NCBI GenBank assembly: GCA_015068165.1
Contig: SVKZ01000011.1
Coordinates: 1 to 35,009, forward strand
Direction of reading: 5' to 3'
Source: Oscillospiraceae bacterium
GTDB lineage: Bacteria; Bacillota; Clostridia; Oscillospirales; Oscillospiraceae
Length of the DNA: 35,009 bases
How positions within the stretch are numbered: the stretch's first letter is position 1; each line of letters starts with the position of its first letter. The notes beneath the pieces were generated by a model, which ran no database searches, had not been told where the DNA came from, and was given only the letters and a program-made list of their open reading frames with translations. The position numbers and the translations under genes are program-made. Shown piece by piece: positions 23,219-34,262 of this stretch.

Positions 23219-23998
23219 ATGCAGGGAAAAGTAGAGATCTGCGGTGTGAACACCGCCCGACTAAAGGTTTTATCCGCCAAAGAAATGGACAGATTACTGC
23301 TACAGGCCAAGGACGGGGACGAAGATGCACGGGGGCAACTGATTGAAGGGAATCTCCGGCTGGTTCTGTCGGTGATCCAGCGTTTTGAAAAACGGGGCGA
23401 GTGTCCGGACGACCTGTTTCAGGTTGGCTGTATCGGTCTTATGAAGGCCATCAACAATTTCGATCCCACAAAACAGGTAAAATTCTCCACCTACGGCGTG
23501 CCGATGATTGCCGGCGAGGTGCGCCGGTATCTGAGGGACAACGCCGCTATTCGGGTTTCCCGCTCCATCCGGGATGTGGCTTACCGGGTATTGCAATGTA
23601 AAGAGGCGCTCCTATTAAAATTAGGCAGGGACCCCACTTTGGAAGAAATCTCCAAGGAATTAGACCTACCGGAGGCCACCGTTAGCGAAGCGCTGGACGC
23701 CGTCTGTGCGCCGGTGAGCCTGTACGATCCCGTTTACGCCGACGGCGGTGATCCACTGACTGTAATGGACCAGGTGCGGGATACCCGAAACACCGACGAA
23801 AACTGGCTGGAGCGCATTGCGCTCCGGGATGCTTTCCGGGCATTAGGCCCACGGGAAAAAGAAATCCTCTCCCTCCGGTTTTTTGACGGCAAAACCCAAA
23901 TGGAGGTGGCAAACTTGGTGGGCATCTCCCAAGCCCAGGTTTCCCGCTTGGAAAAAGGCGCTATCTCGGCAATGCGGAAGCAAGTATTGCCAAGCTAA
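23219..23998 (+). CDS. sigG: RNA polymerase sporulation sigma factor SigG
   Basis: KVEICGVNTARLKVLS N-terminus, NGNLRLVLSVIQRF-like region, DLFQVGCIGLMKAINNFD, GKTQMEVANLVGISQAQVSRLEK. Confidence 0.95.
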   Translation: MQGKVEICGVNTARLKVLSAKEMDRLLLQAKDGDEDARGQLIEGNLRLVLSVIQRFEKRGECPDDLFQVGCIGLMKAINNFDPTKQVKFSTYGVPMIAGEVRRYLRDNAAIRVSRSIRDVAYRVLQCKEALLLKLGRDPTLEEISKELDLPEATVSEALDAVCAPVSLYDPVYADGGDPLTVMDQVRDTRNTDENWLERIALRDAFRALGPREKEILSLRFFDGKTQMEVANLVGISQAQVSRLEKGAISAMRKQVLPS

Positions 23999-26332: not shown

Positions 26333-27283
26333 TTATGCTTCCGGCAGAGTAACACCTGTTTTAACAAAGCTGTTGAAATATTCTACAATTTCCCGTGGGG
26401 TGTACTTGCCGCTGACCGAACCTGGATAGAAAAGTCCCATATTTTCCCAGCAGATAATAAAACGGTCAAACTCATCCGTGGTCGCAAGCATCATAGGTTC
26501 TGAAACCTGTGTATCTGGATTATAACCATACACCAGCGTTTGTACAAAAGTCAAGTTGTATTTGTCGACTTCATTCCAATACATTGGTGTACTCTCAGGC
26601 GCTTGCAAAGAAGATAGATTTTTCTTTGACGGCTCTATATCTAAGCAAATAACATCTTTTCCGAAAAGATAATCCCGGTAATATCCGCATACGTCAAGCT
26701 GTACCATTTCAATTGCATACCCTTTGTCGTCCATTCGGGCAGCATCTACGGTCATATCAAAATTAACCGACTCTACATAATCCCATTCTTCCTTATTTTC
26801 TTCAAAATAGGAAACACATTCCTGGGCAGTATATACACCACTGCCGGAGCCAATATAAGAAATCTCTCCCCTGCCTTGTAAAACTACACGGTCAAAATCA
26901 TCTGCAAAGTATAGGCGCATGGTTTCTGTATAGGTGCGGTCTGTGCGCTCGGCTTCAAAATAGACACAGCCTCGCTGTTGCTCTTGAAAATACACAAAGT
27001 TATTTTCTTTTCGCATACGGATATTGGTAAAGCGATCAAAGTCATCTATGCTTAGGTTCCAGACATCCTCTTTTGTACGATAATCCTGATGCTTACCCAC
27101 GATATGAATCTGTACCGTACCGATTTCTTTTCCTTTTGCATCCATTTTTACTGCTTCAAAGGTCAGATCAATCTTCTTCACTTCGGGAGTATCCCTAAAG
27201 CACATATATATTGCCAGCAAAATACTAACCGCGCAGACAAGATACAACAAAAGCTTCCAGTGCCGTTTCATAAAATCTTTCAA
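26333..27283 (-). CDS. membrane-anchored hypothetical protein with two internal repeats
   Basis: N-terminal TM segment (WKLLLYLVCAVSILLAIYMCF) then two similar extracytoplasmic repeats; probable TTG start at 27283 after AAGGAG. Confidence 0.7.
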   Translation of the reverse strand: MKDFMKRHWKLLLYLVCAVSILLAIYMCFRDTPEVKKIDLTFEAVKMDAKGKEIGTVQIHIVGKHQDYRTKEDVWNLSIDDFDRFTNIRMRKENNFVYFQEQQRGCVYFEAERTDRTYTETMRLYFADDFDRVVLQGRGEISYIGSGSGVYTAQECVSYFEENKEEWDYVESVNFDMTVDAARMDDKGYAIEMVQLDVCGYYRDYLFGKDVICLDIEPSKKNLSSLQAPESTPMYWNEVDKYNLTFVQTLVYGYNPDTQVSEPMMLATTDEFDRFIICWENMGLFYPGSVSGKYTPREIVEYFNSFVKTGVTLPEA

Positions 27284-27381
27284 ATGTATCACTCCTTCTA
27301 TAGGTATCGGCGAAGCAGAAATTATTATTAATGGTATCATACCGTTTGGGAATGCACAACCTCTTTCCGTTTCTATCTATT

Positions 27382-27494
27382 GTAACGAAATAGCCACCCC
27401 GATTTTGGACACTTGTTTTCGATTTTTTTGAAAATGCTATAATGAAGAAAATTTTTCTTCCACCTGTCCAAAAATCCCCGCTTTGTTTCGTTAC
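27382..27494. promoter_or_regulatory. two-box dyad upstream of the ECF sigma operon
   Basis: GTAACGAAA-N12-TTTTGGACA (27382-27411) and its inverted copy TGTCCAAAA-N12-TTTCGTTAC (27465-27494), same centre of symmetry at 27438. Confidence 0.6.
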
Positions 27495-27526
27495 TATGGT
27501 AAAGAGCCTATAAAAGGAGGCATTCT

Positions 27527-28045
27527 ATGCTTGTCTATCTGCAAATGATTGAAACACCCCAGCAGCAATCTGCTTTTGAGGAAATCTATCTCGCTTACCG
27601 GGCGCTGATGTTCCATGTTGCCAACAACATTCTCCAAAACGACGAGGATGCGGAGGATGCGGTACACAATGCTTTTATTGTCATCGCGGAAAATATGGAA
27701 AAAATTGAAACGCCGGTTTGTCCAAAAACAAGGGGCTATATCGTTACAATCGTTGAGAGCAAGGCCATTGATATTTACCGCAAAAAGAACCAGCATCCCC
27801 ACCTACCCCTATGCGAAGAGGTAGTAGGAATTGCCGTTGACCCCACCGCCTGCGACGGTATTGCCCGGTGTTTTGCCCGTTTGCCGGTGAAAGACCGCCA
27901 TATTCTGCTGCTAAAATATCGCTACGGCTATACGAACCGGGAACTTGCCCATCTTTTGCAGCTCTCAGAAGCAAATGCCATAAAGCGCGCCCAGCGGGCA
28001 AAGGAAAAGCTGGCGCAGCTTTGCAAAGAGGAGGGAATACGATGA
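27527..28045 (+). CDS. ECF-type RNA polymerase sigma factor
   Basis: NDEDAEDAVHNAFIVIAENMEKI, RGYIVTIVESKAIDIYRKK region 2 and YGYTNRELAHLLQLSEANAIKRAQRAKEKL region 4. Confidence 0.92.
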   Translation: MLVYLQMIETPQQQSAFEEIYLAYRALMFHVANNILQNDEDAEDAVHNAFIVIAENMEKIETPVCPKTRGYIVTIVESKAIDIYRKKNQHPHLPLCEEVVGIAVDPTACDGIARCFARLPVKDRHILLLKYRYGYTNRELAHLLQLSEANAIKRAQRAKEKLAQLCKEEGIR

Positions 28046-28755
28046 TGAATGATGAACTTATTACTTTAGCCGCCACCGAATACGAAAATGCTCTGCTTTC
28101 CGCCCTGTCGGAAACCGAGTGGGAAACCCACAACTTTTCTACCAAATTTGAGGAGAAAATGGAAAAGCTACGCAAAAATGTCCACCGCAAGAGAGACTTT
28201 GCCGCCTTGAAACGGGTCGCAATCATTGCGCTTATTTCCGCGCTCTTGGCAGGGTCTCTTGCGCTGACAAACCCCACCGTTCGCGCTTCTGTTTACGGTT
28301 GGCTCAAAACCCATTTTGAAAGTGTTTTTATCTATATTGACGGCAAACCTTCCCAAAATGTTCCCTGGGAATATGAAATCACCTGGTTCCCGGATGACTA
28401 TACTTTAGCAAGCCAAGAGCCTGCCCCGGACGGACACACCCTCGTCTATACTTGCGCGGGAAAGCCCGATATTGTGTTTACCTATTTTTATAAGAGCCAG
28501 CAAGGCTCGCAGATTATGTTTGATGAACCTGCCCTTATAAAAAATGTTACGGTCTCCGAGCTCCCGGCAGAAATTTATATTTTCGCCGACCCTGAAAAGC
28601 CGAAAGCCATCCTATGGAACACAAGATGGGCCGTTTACCAGTTCCTCATCACTGCGGATGCAGACGAGGAAACGCTGATAGAGCTTGCCGAGAGCATCGT
28701 GATGACAAAGGACAACACCCACAAAAACCCGACCCTTCCCCCAGATGCCGGGTAA
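28042..28755 (+). CDS. anti-sigma factor-like membrane protein (DUF4367-like C-terminus)
   Basis: ATGA overlap with ECF sigma stop; cytoplasmic N-terminus, single TM (VAIIALISALLAGSLAL), extracytoplasmic C-terminus with WFPDDYTL. Confidence 0.8.
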   Translation: MMNDELITLAATEYENALLSALSETEWETHNFSTKFEEKMEKLRKNVHRKRDFAALKRVAIIALISALLAGSLALTNPTVRASVYGWLKTHFESVFIYIDGKPSQNVPWEYEITWFPDDYTLASQEPAPDGHTLVYTCAGKPDIVFTYFYKSQQGSQIMFDEPALIKNVTVSELPAEIYIFADPEKPKAILWNTRWAVYQFLITADADEETLIELAESIVMTKDNTHKNPTLPPDAG

Positions 28756-29005: not shown

Positions 29006-29776
29006 TTACCCAAACAATTCATCCACCGAGCCAAATGAATAGCCCATACCTTTCCATTTGGTCAGCAGTTCGTCCAAAATTTCTGCGTTTGTTTTCGATG
29101 TAGAGTGGAGCAGCACCACCGCGCCGTTATGGATCCGGGGCAAAAGCTTGGAAAAGGCCTCCTCTTTTGTGGGCTGGGCGTCGTTGTTCCAATCCACATA
29201 AGCAAGGCTCCAAAATACTGTCTTATAGCCCAAATTTTGTGCGTTTTTCAGGTTTTCCAAGCTGTATGTACCCTGAGGTGGGCGGTAATATTTGGGCAGT
29301 TCCTTGCCGGTAATGTTGAAAAACAGCTGTTCCAGCTCCTGCAATTCCTCCGCAAAGGCCGCCGGGTCGGCGATTTTCTCCATATTATAATGGTGCATCG
29401 TGTGATTGCCCACAATATGTCCCTCATTTACCATCCGCCGCACAAGGTCAGGATTGCGCTCCATATAGTTGCCAACTAAGAAAAAGGCCGCAGGCACATT
29501 GTGCTTTTTGAGAATGTCCAAAATTTTTTCTGTACAGCCGTTTTCATAGCCTGCATCAAAGGTCAAATATATCTTCTTTTGACTGGTATCTCCCAAAAAT
29601 ACCGTATCGTATTTTTGAAGCTGTGCCACCCCGGCAGACCCTTCCGGGGGCTCTCCCTCGGTGTGGAAGCGCAAGCCCCAACTCCCTGCGGGCACAGATC
29701 TGCCAAAAAATGTGGCAACAACCCCTATCAGGCAAAACGCCCCTATAGCAATCAGTGTCAGTTTTTTCCTTTTCAT
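29006..29776 (-). CDS. pdaA: polysaccharide deacetylase, PdaA-like (spore cortex muramic delta-lactam)
   Basis: KKIYLTFDAGYENGCTEKILDILKKHNVPAAFFLVGNY, GNHTMHHYNM, RPPQGTYS motifs. Confidence 0.88.
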   Translation of the reverse strand: MKRKKLTLIAIGAFCLIGVVATFFGRSVPAGSWGLRFHTEGEPPEGSAGVAQLQKYDTVFLGDTSQKKIYLTFDAGYENGCTEKILDILKKHNVPAAFFLVGNYMERNPDLVRRMVNEGHIVGNHTMHHYNMEKIADPAAFAEELQELEQLFFNITGKELPKYYRPPQGTYSLENLKNAQNLGYKTVFWSLAYVDWNNDAQPTKEEAFSKLLPRIHNGAVVLLHSTSKTNAEILDELLTKWKGMGYSFGSVDELFG

Positions 29777-31636: not shown

Positions 31637-33541
31637 CTATTCTTCCCTTAGTCGTATACAAACCACCGTGGCATCGTCGTCGCCCTGATTTGTGCCGCAG
31701 TCTACAAGGCAACGGGCAAGTATATCCTCCGGCGCACCGGCCTTTTCCCGGCAGATCCGAATGGCCGCTTCTTCTCCCACTCCATCGCTGACCAGAAGCA
31801 GAAGCTCTCCGCACCCTAAATTCACCCGCCGGGCAGGCGCTTGCCAACCGGAGGCAGACAATCCCGGCGGCGGCGTGGGAACGCCGATTTTTTCAACCGT
31901 TCCGTCTGTGATCAGATAGGAGGGTGCAGCGCCCCATTTGTAAAGACTTACAATGCCGGTATCCAGCCGTAGCTCTACCAGATCTACCGTCAATATCCCC
32001 GCTCTGTCCCGGAGGGCGCAAATGCTGTTTAGACTTCCCAGGGCGTGTTCCGTCGGGTAGCCCGCCAAAAGCAACTGCCGCAAAAGATCACAGCCCGTCC
32101 TTGCTTCCTGCGCCGCTTCCGGACCACTGCCCATTCCGTCGCAGAGAATCACATAGTATTTTCCCCCGGTGCCCATAAAGCGCAGACAACGGTCGCCGTT
32201 TTCTACCGCAGGTCGATTACAGTACACCCTTGTCTCTGCGTGGAAATTATTTTCTATGCAGTCTATCTTGTGGGTCAGGGAATCCGAAAGCTCCTGTAAA
32301 TATCCCGACAAAAATCCGTATTGCTGTACCACCGCCGCCCGGTACTCCCGCTGCCGCTGTCGGTCTGCCGCAATGGTTCTGAACTGTTCCTGGCTTTTGT
32401 GAAGCTGCGCCAAAAGCCGGCCGCTTTTCTTACAAATAACAGGCAGCTCCTCCGCATTTTGAAGGGGCTGGTGTAAAAGCGTTCCCGGCATCTGTGCGAC
32501 CCGATTTACATCTTTGCAATTTTTCCGGCAGGTACAGCTGTTGCAAGCCCCTTCCACCGCCCGCTGAATTAGCAAATCCGTATCTATGGGAATTTCCGGA
32601 ATACCGCTTAATAACTGCCTGGTTTGGGTCAACACCCCCGCCGCCAACTCCAAGCGCACTTGGGCAAGGCCGATTTCTCCTCTTTTGTGGGTCTTTGGGG
32701 CTTGGGTTGGTAGATAGACACCCGCCATAGCCCCTAAAAACAAACCGGGAACCGGCGAAAGATCCCAAACGCCGCATATATACATTACGATACTGCTGAC
32801 ACTTACCACGCCAAATCCGCCCAGCCATAGGGGCTGTCGGGGCAAAAACCGTATAAGGTAAGAAAGACATACAATCGCCGTCATCGGCAACGGCGTAATC
32901 CCTGCCAAATCCAAGGCAAGGCCGCTGAGCGCCGCCGCCGGGAATGCCCCCCGTACCACCAGCGCACCGGCGGCGATATAGCCGAGTCCAATATAAGGTA
33001 GCGGCAAGATCTGCGCCAATGCCAGTACCGCAAATCCGCAGGCAAACCAGTCAAAAAGAGGATTTCTCTCCCGTAGCACCCGAAACGACACGCCACAGGA
33101 AGATAGTGCCATCAGTATTCGCAAAAGATAGAGCGCCACCGGGGTTTTATCTCCGGATAACGCCTGAAATAACACGCCCCATAACGCCACCGTCAGCGCC
33201 GCCGCCATGGGAAGCAAGAGGGGGGCTTCCCTGCATATCTGCCTGTCTCCCAGCACAGCAGACAGTAGCAGTGCCGATGCACACCAAGCCACCGGCTGTA
33301 TTCCGCCGCCCCAAAAGAAATAATAACCCAAAGCACCACCAACTGCCGCCGCAACCCCATTTGCCCCGGTGCAGGCGCAGATAAAGCCCATTGCCAGCGG
33401 CAAAAAACCGTTTCCCAGACTGGCGGCACACAGGCAAAATCCTGATAAAAAGTACCCGCACCTTTCCAAAATTGCCGGGAACGGCGGCTGTGTCCAAATG
33501 CGACGTAATGCGCTTTTTTCTTGCCTCTTAAATTCCATCAT
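31637..33541 (-). CDS. spoIIE: stage II sporulation protein E (PP2C-type phosphatase)
   Basis: Polytopic N-terminus then CDGMGSGPEAAQEARTGCDLLRQLL and ILTVDLVELRLDTGIVSLYKWGAAPSYL, ending GDDDATVVCIRL; about 634 aa from the ATG at 33541. Confidence 0.92.
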   Translation of the reverse strand: MMEFKRQEKSALRRIWTQPPFPAILERCGYFLSGFCLCAASLGNGFLPLAMGFICACTGANGVAAAVGGALGYYFFWGGGIQPVAWCASALLLSAVLGDRQICREAPLLLPMAAALTVALWGVLFQALSGDKTPVALYLLRILMALSSCGVSFRVLRERNPLFDWFACGFAVLALAQILPLPYIGLGYIAAGALVVRGAFPAAALSGLALDLAGITPLPMTAIVCLSYLIRFLPRQPLWLGGFGVVSVSSIVMYICGVWDLSPVPGLFLGAMAGVYLPTQAPKTHKRGEIGLAQVRLELAAGVLTQTRQLLSGIPEIPIDTDLLIQRAVEGACNSCTCRKNCKDVNRVAQMPGTLLHQPLQNAEELPVICKKSGRLLAQLHKSQEQFRTIAADRQRQREYRAAVVQQYGFLSGYLQELSDSLTHKIDCIENNFHAETRVYCNRPAVENGDRCLRFMGTGGKYYVILCDGMGSGPEAAQEARTGCDLLRQLLLAGYPTEHALGSLNSICALRDRAGILTVDLVELRLDTGIVSLYKWGAAPSYLITDGTVEKIGVPTPPPGLSASGWQAPARRVNLGCGELLLLVSDGVGEEAAIRICREKAGAPEDILARCLVDCGTNQGDDDATVVCIRLREE

Positions 33542-33626
33542 ATGTACCACACCCTTTCTTTGATACCTGCATCCTATCACGCAAAAGAAAAAATATTTGT
33601 CGTTTGGGTGTAGGGCAGAAAGATTC

Positions 33627-33655
33627 TTGCATTGGATGACAGAAAGATGTATAAT
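33627..33655 (+). promoter_or_regulatory. sigmaA promoter of the CYTH gene
   Basis: TTGCAT - 17 bp - TATAAT. Confidence 0.7.
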
Positions 33656-33677
33656 GAGCAAAAACGGAGGTGGGGTT

Positions 33678-34262
33678 ATGGGTCTGGAATATGAGAAGAA
33701 ATACCGGGCAGATTTTGAAAGTCTTGCTTTGATCAATGCCTCCCTTGCAGAGCCTTCCTTTCTTCTTGAGATGGAAACCACCTATTATGACACACCGGAT
33801 TTAGTTTTGTCCGGGCAAAAAATAACCCTGCGCCGCCGTTTTGAAAACGGAAAGGCCGTCTGCACCTTAAAAACCCCCACCAATACTGCCGCCCGGGGCG
33901 AATTTCAGGTGGAAAAAGCAGATATTGCCGAGGCTATTCCTATTTTATGTAAACTTAGTGGCTTTGAAGAACTGCAAACCCTCACCGCTTGCGGTGTGAT
34001 ACCGGTTTGCGGGGCAAAATTTACCCGTACCGCCCGGAAAGTCTCCTTTGGAAACAGCACCTTAGAGGTTGCTTTGGATCGGGGTGTGCTGACAGGGGGC
34101 GAAAAAGAGCTTCCCCTGTACGAAGTAGAGGTGGAGCTTTTGTCCGGCGACCGGGCAGATGCAGACCTTTACGGTAAGCTCTTAGCCGCAAAATTCTCCC
34201 TCTCAGAAGAAAAACACAGCAAATTCCGCCGGGCGCTTGCGCTGGCAAAAGGAGAAATCTGA
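33678..34262 (+). CDS. CYTH domain protein (inorganic triphosphatase-like)
   Basis: MGLEYEKKYRAD N-terminus, TLRRRFENGKAVCTLKTP, EVEVELLSGD, SKFRRAL. Confidence 0.87.
   Translation: MGLEYEKKYRADFESLALINASLAEPSFLLEMETTYYDTPDLVLSGQKITLRRRFENGKAVCTLKTPTNTAARGEFQVEKADIAEAIPILCKLSGFEELQTLTACGVIPVCGAKFTRTARKVSFGNSTLEVALDRGVLTGGEKELPLYEVEVELLSGDRADADLYGKLLAAKFSLSEEKHSKFRRALALAKGEI

Follow-up and report, generated by a model that had tools for sequence, protein, structure and literature searches.

The closest precedent for the arrangement described here is the sigH-rshA operon of Corynebacterium glutamicum, in which a SigH-dependent promoter (PrshA) inside sigH drives rshA (PMC3489674). SigH-type promoters lie upstream of rshA in 63 Corynebacterium species, and sigH itself is rarely autoregulated (PMC10012870). 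In sigW-rsiW and other autoregulated ECF operons of Firmicutes, genes for an ECF sigma factor and a membrane anti-sigma factor follow an upstream ECF promoter (PMC3498285). Canonical ECF promoters combine an AAC -35 with a CGT -10 element (reviewed in PMC8103513).

The locus studied here has features of both kinds of operon. It lies in a 35,009-nucleotide stretch of an Oscillospiraceae contig (hereafter the window), and all that we conclude about it is drawn from draft-genome sequence. We are fairly confident that a mirrored pair of boxes in the window represents divergent, outward ECF promoters (-35 TGTCCAAA, -10 TCGTTA), one for the sigma and anti-sigma genes and one for a divergent extracytoplasmic membrane protein. 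Both would be intergenic versions of a promoter that is conserved best within the sigma gene, at codons 65–76, from where the sigma factor would drive its own anti-sigma gene.

The sigma gene (27527–28045, plus strand) encodes a 172-residue ECF factor (Pfam Sigma70_r2 at residues 21–88 and Sigma70_r4_2 at 112–162; NCBIfam sigma70-ECF). A scan of genome contigs with this protein returned only remote ECF factors of other groups. Its stop codon is overlapped by a gene for a putative membrane-anchored anti-sigma factor with a DUF4367 domain (28042–28755, plus), a domain also present in 25 of 25 sampled downstream proteins of homologous operons. The gene has the place and product expected of a cognate anti-sigma factor, namely an adjacent membrane protein with a cytoplasmic N-terminus, and its product presumably inhibits the sigma factor of the locus. 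The divergent gene (26333–27283, minus) encodes a protein with a single transmembrane helix at the N-terminus and two beta-rich extracytoplasmic repeats (model pLDDT 69) that matches no family in Pfam or NCBIfam. Genes that we take to be polysaccharide-deacetylase-like (29006–29776, minus) and SpoIIE-like (31637–33781, minus) flank the region, and a presumed SigG-like sporulation sigma gene (23219–23998, plus) lies nearby.

Between the sigma gene and the divergent gene, the plus strand reads GTAACGAAA (27382–27390), N12, TTTTGGACA (27403–27411) and then TGTCCAAAA (27465–27473), N12, TTTCGTTAC (27486–27494). An earlier note on this DNA described these as inverted two-box pairs with identical spacing and diverged spacers. 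Direct reading bears this out, as does a repeat finder; read outward, the spacers are TCGGGGTGGCTA and ATCCCCGCTTTG, which differ. The two arm pairs share the centre 27438, but such exact symmetry is uninformative by itself because it is automatic for inverted copies with equal internal spacing. The shared unit is longer than the boxes and continues to CGTTAC(A/T)ATxG. We ran the genome-wide search that the note had proposed: exact TGTCCAAAA-N12-TTTCGTTAC occurs only twice in the whole 1.39-Mb genome, both times here, once per strand, and the calculated chance of an exact match to these 18 fixed letters is about 4 × 10−5. Allowing up to three mismatches added just two genome matches, compared with three for a reversed control. 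A pattern search of the same genome for the regulon found only these two sites, a third one described below and a few weak matches.

Related loci show which way the boxes point. The orthologues and paralogues that we examined have -35 TGTC farther from the gene and -10 CGTTA nearer to it, about 16–18 bp apart. In G011, a genome of the same genus, two homologous ECF genes (47–49% identity) are preceded by TGTCTAAAATCGACCCTTTCATTCGTTA and TGTGTCAAATCAAAGCTTTGTTTCGTTA; the start codon follows 33 and 47 nt past the end of the 35-nt site. These orthologues thus carry TGTC(T)AAA..TTCGTTA before the ECF start codon, which supports the proposal that the plus-strand copy autoregulates the sigma operon. 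In a further genome, G006, the copy near an ECF gene points away from it and into a secreted-lipoprotein gene, which supports the minus-strand copy as a driver of the divergent gene. Two boxes at this distance, conserved at orthologous and target loci, are what an ECF promoter should look like, and the orthologues in both genomes argue for promoters of one ECF sigma factor. Applied to the window, the TGTC-to-CGTTA order of the orthologues makes the pair point outward. Most likely, then, the neighbouring ECF sigma factor reads the mirrored boxes as two promoters directed away from each other.

The plus-strand promoter, TGTCCAAAA-N12-TTTCGTTACTATGGT (27465–27500; 32.3 bits), would serve the sigma/anti-sigma operon and has orthologous positions in G011. 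Its minus-strand counterpart, TGTCCAAAA-N12-TTTCGTTACAATAGA (27376–27411; 28.0 bits), is directed toward the divergent membrane-protein gene, its predicted target, in the same architecture as in G006. Both have a TGT-to-CGTTA spacing of 24 nt rather than the commoner 23 nt; 24 is found in 9 of 40 external hits. Transcripts are predicted to start near 27500 (plus) and 27376 (minus), giving the sigma gene a leader of about 26 nt and the divergent gene one of about 92 nt, with no overlap.

The note had drawn the promoters facing each other, with the AAC within GTAACGAAA in the -35. Inward-facing promoters would have GTAAC as the -35, a spacer of some 16 bp, a -10 near TTTTGGACA and long overlapping antisense leaders. 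The sequence is present as described and AAC is common as an ECF -35 core, but the orthologous copies do not read GTAAC to GGACA toward their genes. The single G011 copy before an ECF gene reads TGTC..CGTTA toward that gene; the same order runs toward secreted-protein genes and, inside the sigma gene, toward the anti-sigma gene. Moreover, CGTTA suits known ECF -10 elements, with their CGT core (PMC8103513). The inward reading has the -35 and -10 swapped, so that overlapping leaders do not follow, and we consider it highly improbable. What stands of the note is that the boxes are probably promoters of one ECF sigma factor with both targets; the direction does not stand, and a third, intragenic copy had been overlooked.

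Between the two outward ECF promoters lies a possible sigA promoter, TTGTTT-N19-TATAAT with a TG extended -10 (27413–27443, plus; its -35 is weak and its spacer long). The central TATAAT (27438–27443) is compatible with an additional sigA-type promoter that may provide basal sigma expression, and sigA-like promoters precede many homologous sigma genes. The identical inverted half-sites on either side of this TATAAT could also be taken for an operator, bound by a repressor or activator dimer around a sigA promoter. A separation of about 80 bp would be unusual for one dimer, however, and the copies at other loci are single, without dyad, and close upstream of start codons. A further copy lies within the sigma gene, and its -35 letters match those of other promoters of the same operon. 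We therefore rate an operator as very unlikely, and continue with the outward ECF promoters.

The third copy came to light when a genus-wide motif scan matched the sigma ORF itself at 27719–27746. This putative intragenic ECF promoter, TGTCCAAAAACAAGGGGCTATATCGTTACAATCGT (27719–27753, plus; 32.2 bits), occupies codons 65–76 with a spacing of 23 nt and a predicted start near 27753, about 290 nt before the anti-sigma start codon. As in sigH-rshA, the sigma ORF thus contains, ahead of the anti-sigma gene, a candidate promoter of the sigma factor's own type. We aligned 127 homologous ECF genes from protein searches of the genus and the order; a few of them had first been noticed through the motif scan, yet they were also in the protein search. 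Many have the same DNA at the same codons, TGT NNN AAA ... (A/C/G)TC GTT A(C/T)T AT(A/T) GT; the internal site is absent from about half of the wider family.

The intragenic element is conserved at the DNA level. For 90 homologues, we compared the third base at each of the 172 codons with what the codon usage of each gene would predict. The five most deviating codons are 72, 73, 74, 67 and 65 (chi 51, 51, 32, 28 and 24; median 4.2), all inside the two boxes (hypergeometric chance 5 × 10−9). Cys65 is encoded by TGT in 62 of 67 cases (62:5), compared with 92 of 220 (92:128) for other cysteines of the same ORFs (p = 1 × 10−14). The two boxes are retained or lost jointly (Fisher p = 4 × 10−17). 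Furthermore, 30 internal sites are observed in 111 genes where within-gene synonymous permutation predicts 1.1. In 27 further homologues, a separate set drawn at class level, codons 66, 73 and 72 rank first, with 74 ninth and 67 twelfth. Kinship among the homologues inflates some of these counts; codon permutation, the reversed profile and within-locus pairing control for different parts of this effect, none of them fully.

A profile built from the internal sites gave 56 matches of at least 22 bits in the fetched loci, against none for the reversed profile. The scores of internal sites are partly circular because the profile was trained on them; the permutation, codon and pair-agreement tests are free of this circularity. 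Many external matches precede a sigma gene or the gene directly after an anti-sigma gene. Letters 3–5 of the -35 agree between the internal and external site of a locus at 51 of 57 positions, where shuffled pairs give a mean of 23.5 (p < 5 × 10−5); a few of the external pairs are poor matches in improbable locations. Examples of matched internal/external letters are TGTAAC/TGTAAC (L234), TGTAGT/TGTAGT (L117), TGTATG/TGTATG (L246) and TGTCAC/TGTCAC (L113 and L214). Residue 66 varies accordingly (P, H, S, N, M, K), and the variants of residues 65–67 (CPK, CHK, CSK, CNK, CME) track the letters of the external promoter.

Could the element be kept as an RNA structure, or for the peptide CPKTRGYIVTIV of sigma region 2, with its likeness to the intergenic sites a coincidence? 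It does encode a conserved peptide of the sigma-2 domain. Yet it is the third codon positions that are constrained, whereas residues 65–67 vary in step with the external promoter letters. Moreover, at one locus in another genome (G067, L133:1501-1750) a near-perfect element lies 62 nt before a 64-residue anti-sigma-like ORF, and no sigma gene was found there; this appears to be a decayed operon that has kept the promoter and the start of the anti-sigma gene. An RNA or peptide constraint is accordingly improbable, and a promoter is the reading we retain.

Outside the codons of the site, the -35 letters covary most strongly with residues 153, 77, 149, 152, 156 and 41. Residues 149, 152, 153 and 156 lie on one face (i, i+3, i+4, i+7) of the sigma-4 recognition helix. 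This covariation is only suggestive because the helix as a whole does not reach significance (p = 0.10); the enrichment of the top covarying columns (p = 3 × 10−4) was computed after the ranking was known. We lean towards a general view in which DUF4367-group ECF sigma genes, across much of Clostridia, carry their own target promoter as sigma-2 codons at one fixed place, and in which -35 specificity, the sigma-4 recognition helix and residues 65–67 change together. The element would give negative feedback through the anti-sigma factor and an internal record of each sigma factor's binding site, which would allow its targets to be read off. With such joint change, promoter identity would dictate part of the protein sequence.

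How do internal and upstream copies relate? Among homologues with an internal site, 44 of 48 have no ECF copy upstream of the sigma gene, many of them with a good sigA promoter in its place; the locus in the window is among the few with both. There is no strict either/or over the whole set, in which an upstream copy occurs in eight genes without and four with an internal site. Among the closest relatives the figures are 5 of 13 without and 2 of 28 with an internal site (p = 0.02), which is suggestive only of a tendency for the two copies to exclude each other. We found no consistent internal start for a truncated sigma factor: an in-frame ATG at codons 78–122 occurs in 28 of 48 genes, and the window sigma gene has none there.

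As in sigH-rshA, an ECF promoter in the sigma coding region would drive the anti-sigma gene, the sigma gene itself is mostly under vegetative promoters and the -10 contains GTT (PMC3489674, PMC10012870). The two systems share this logic and differ in sigma group, anti-sigma type, position in the gene, taxonomic depth and coding consequences. Transcription in sigH-rshA starts 62–66 nt before rshA, whereas the site here spans codons 65–76, about 290 nt ahead of the anti-sigma gene. The anti-sigma factor there is of the zinc type (HxxxCxxC), and here it is a DUF4367 protein. A further difference from sigH-rshA is that the sigma protein is constrained by the site, whose -35 letters change along with those of the other promoters in the operon. 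The operon shares with sigW-rsiW an ECF sigma factor, a membrane anti-sigma factor and, in the plus-strand copy, an upstream ECF promoter (PMC3498285); most members with an internal copy, by contrast, lack the upstream one. The CGT within CGTTA and a spacing in the usual range are canonical, and TGTC(N)NAAA differs from the canonical AAC core (PMC8103513). A literature search of open papers found none that joins DUF4367 with sigma factors or describes the element, which is weak evidence of novelty.

Promoter-like sites within genes can cause pausing or stay silent, as discussed in PMC10771440. The holoenzyme might then mainly pause or block transcription at the intragenic element, with no role in making anti-sigma mRNA. 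We think this very unlikely, since the element sits just ahead of the anti-sigma gene and the comparable PrshA promoter of C. glutamicum is active (PMC3489674).

An intragenic promoter for the anti-sigma gene suggests the following mechanism. Basal sigma factor would be made from a sigA promoter and set free when the DUF4367 membrane anti-sigma factor is inactivated. Free sigma factor would initiate inside its own gene, yielding anti-sigma mRNA without more sigma factor, and hence negative feedback; it would also initiate at the promoters of genes for secreted or envelope proteins. The organism of the window would gain, through its additional divergent pair, positive autoregulation of the sigma gene and a new, divergent envelope-protein target. 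With the same promoter in the sigma coding sequence ahead of the inhibitor gene, in many related Clostridia-type bacteria, the regulator probably turns on its own inhibitor. The sequence itself shows the three sites, their DNA-level conservation, the within-locus -35 match and the gene order; initiation at the sites by sigma–RNA polymerase, anti-sigma mRNA as its product and the role of the divergent gene as a target are what we infer.

Homologues of the divergent protein elsewhere have no convincing ECF promoter of this kind upstream, so that its place as a target rests mainly on the window genome and the analogous layout in G006. The G006 lipoprotein is unrelated, which suggests that a divergent extracytoplasmic gene was recruited more than once. 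G006 has four copies of a near-identical ECF-type promoter (L116:663-690, L154:940-967, L155:1806-1833 and L157:2287-2314). Three precede copies of the lipoprotein gene (MKAKAVLCLFLTALLGLSACQATPEKV...) and the contig of the fourth ends before any such gene, which suggests recent gene amplification within this regulon.

Here, a probable promoter has been maintained within a conserved coding domain across a wide range of taxa, and the protein sequence follows the promoter letters. For many uncharacterised Clostridia ECF factors, the sigma gene itself could reveal the promoter motif, which could then serve in searches for targets. Beside Corynebacterium, the group would also offer another, independent example of anti-sigma feedback that arises within a sigma gene.

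Many of the operons encode, after the anti-sigma gene, a secreted protein of 116–146 residues (L158:4183-4533, L185:402-752, L113:1548-1985 and others). This family has no entry in Pfam or NCBIfam. It is confidently predicted to form a 7-strand beta sandwich (AlphaFold pLDDT 88) whose nearest PDB folds are generic Ig-like domains, and it is the probable main target of DUF4367-group sigma factors. In promoters of the gene after the anti-sigma gene, the -35/-10 spacer is often complementary to that gene's own ribosome-binding site, for example GACCTCCTTCAT and ATGAAGGAGGT (L158:4121-4533, L208:2400-2434, L213:2744-3239, L217:274-764, L220:2738-3373, L115:4218-4252 and similar loci). In about 15 of 21 such sites this complementarity exceeds that of shuffled spacers (p < 0.05), and no sigma-gene promoter that we tested shows the same excess. 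The ribosome-binding site would be hidden in read-through mRNA but not in mRNA from the ECF promoter. The motif also precedes genes for large secreted proteins in G078 (L150:1-2281) and G121 (L151:1-2018), with 697 and 608 residues in open frame, and for one of 1013 residues at L151:7390. In two of these cases the motif lies about 150 nt upstream, and the large secreted proteins are possible further targets of the sigma factors.
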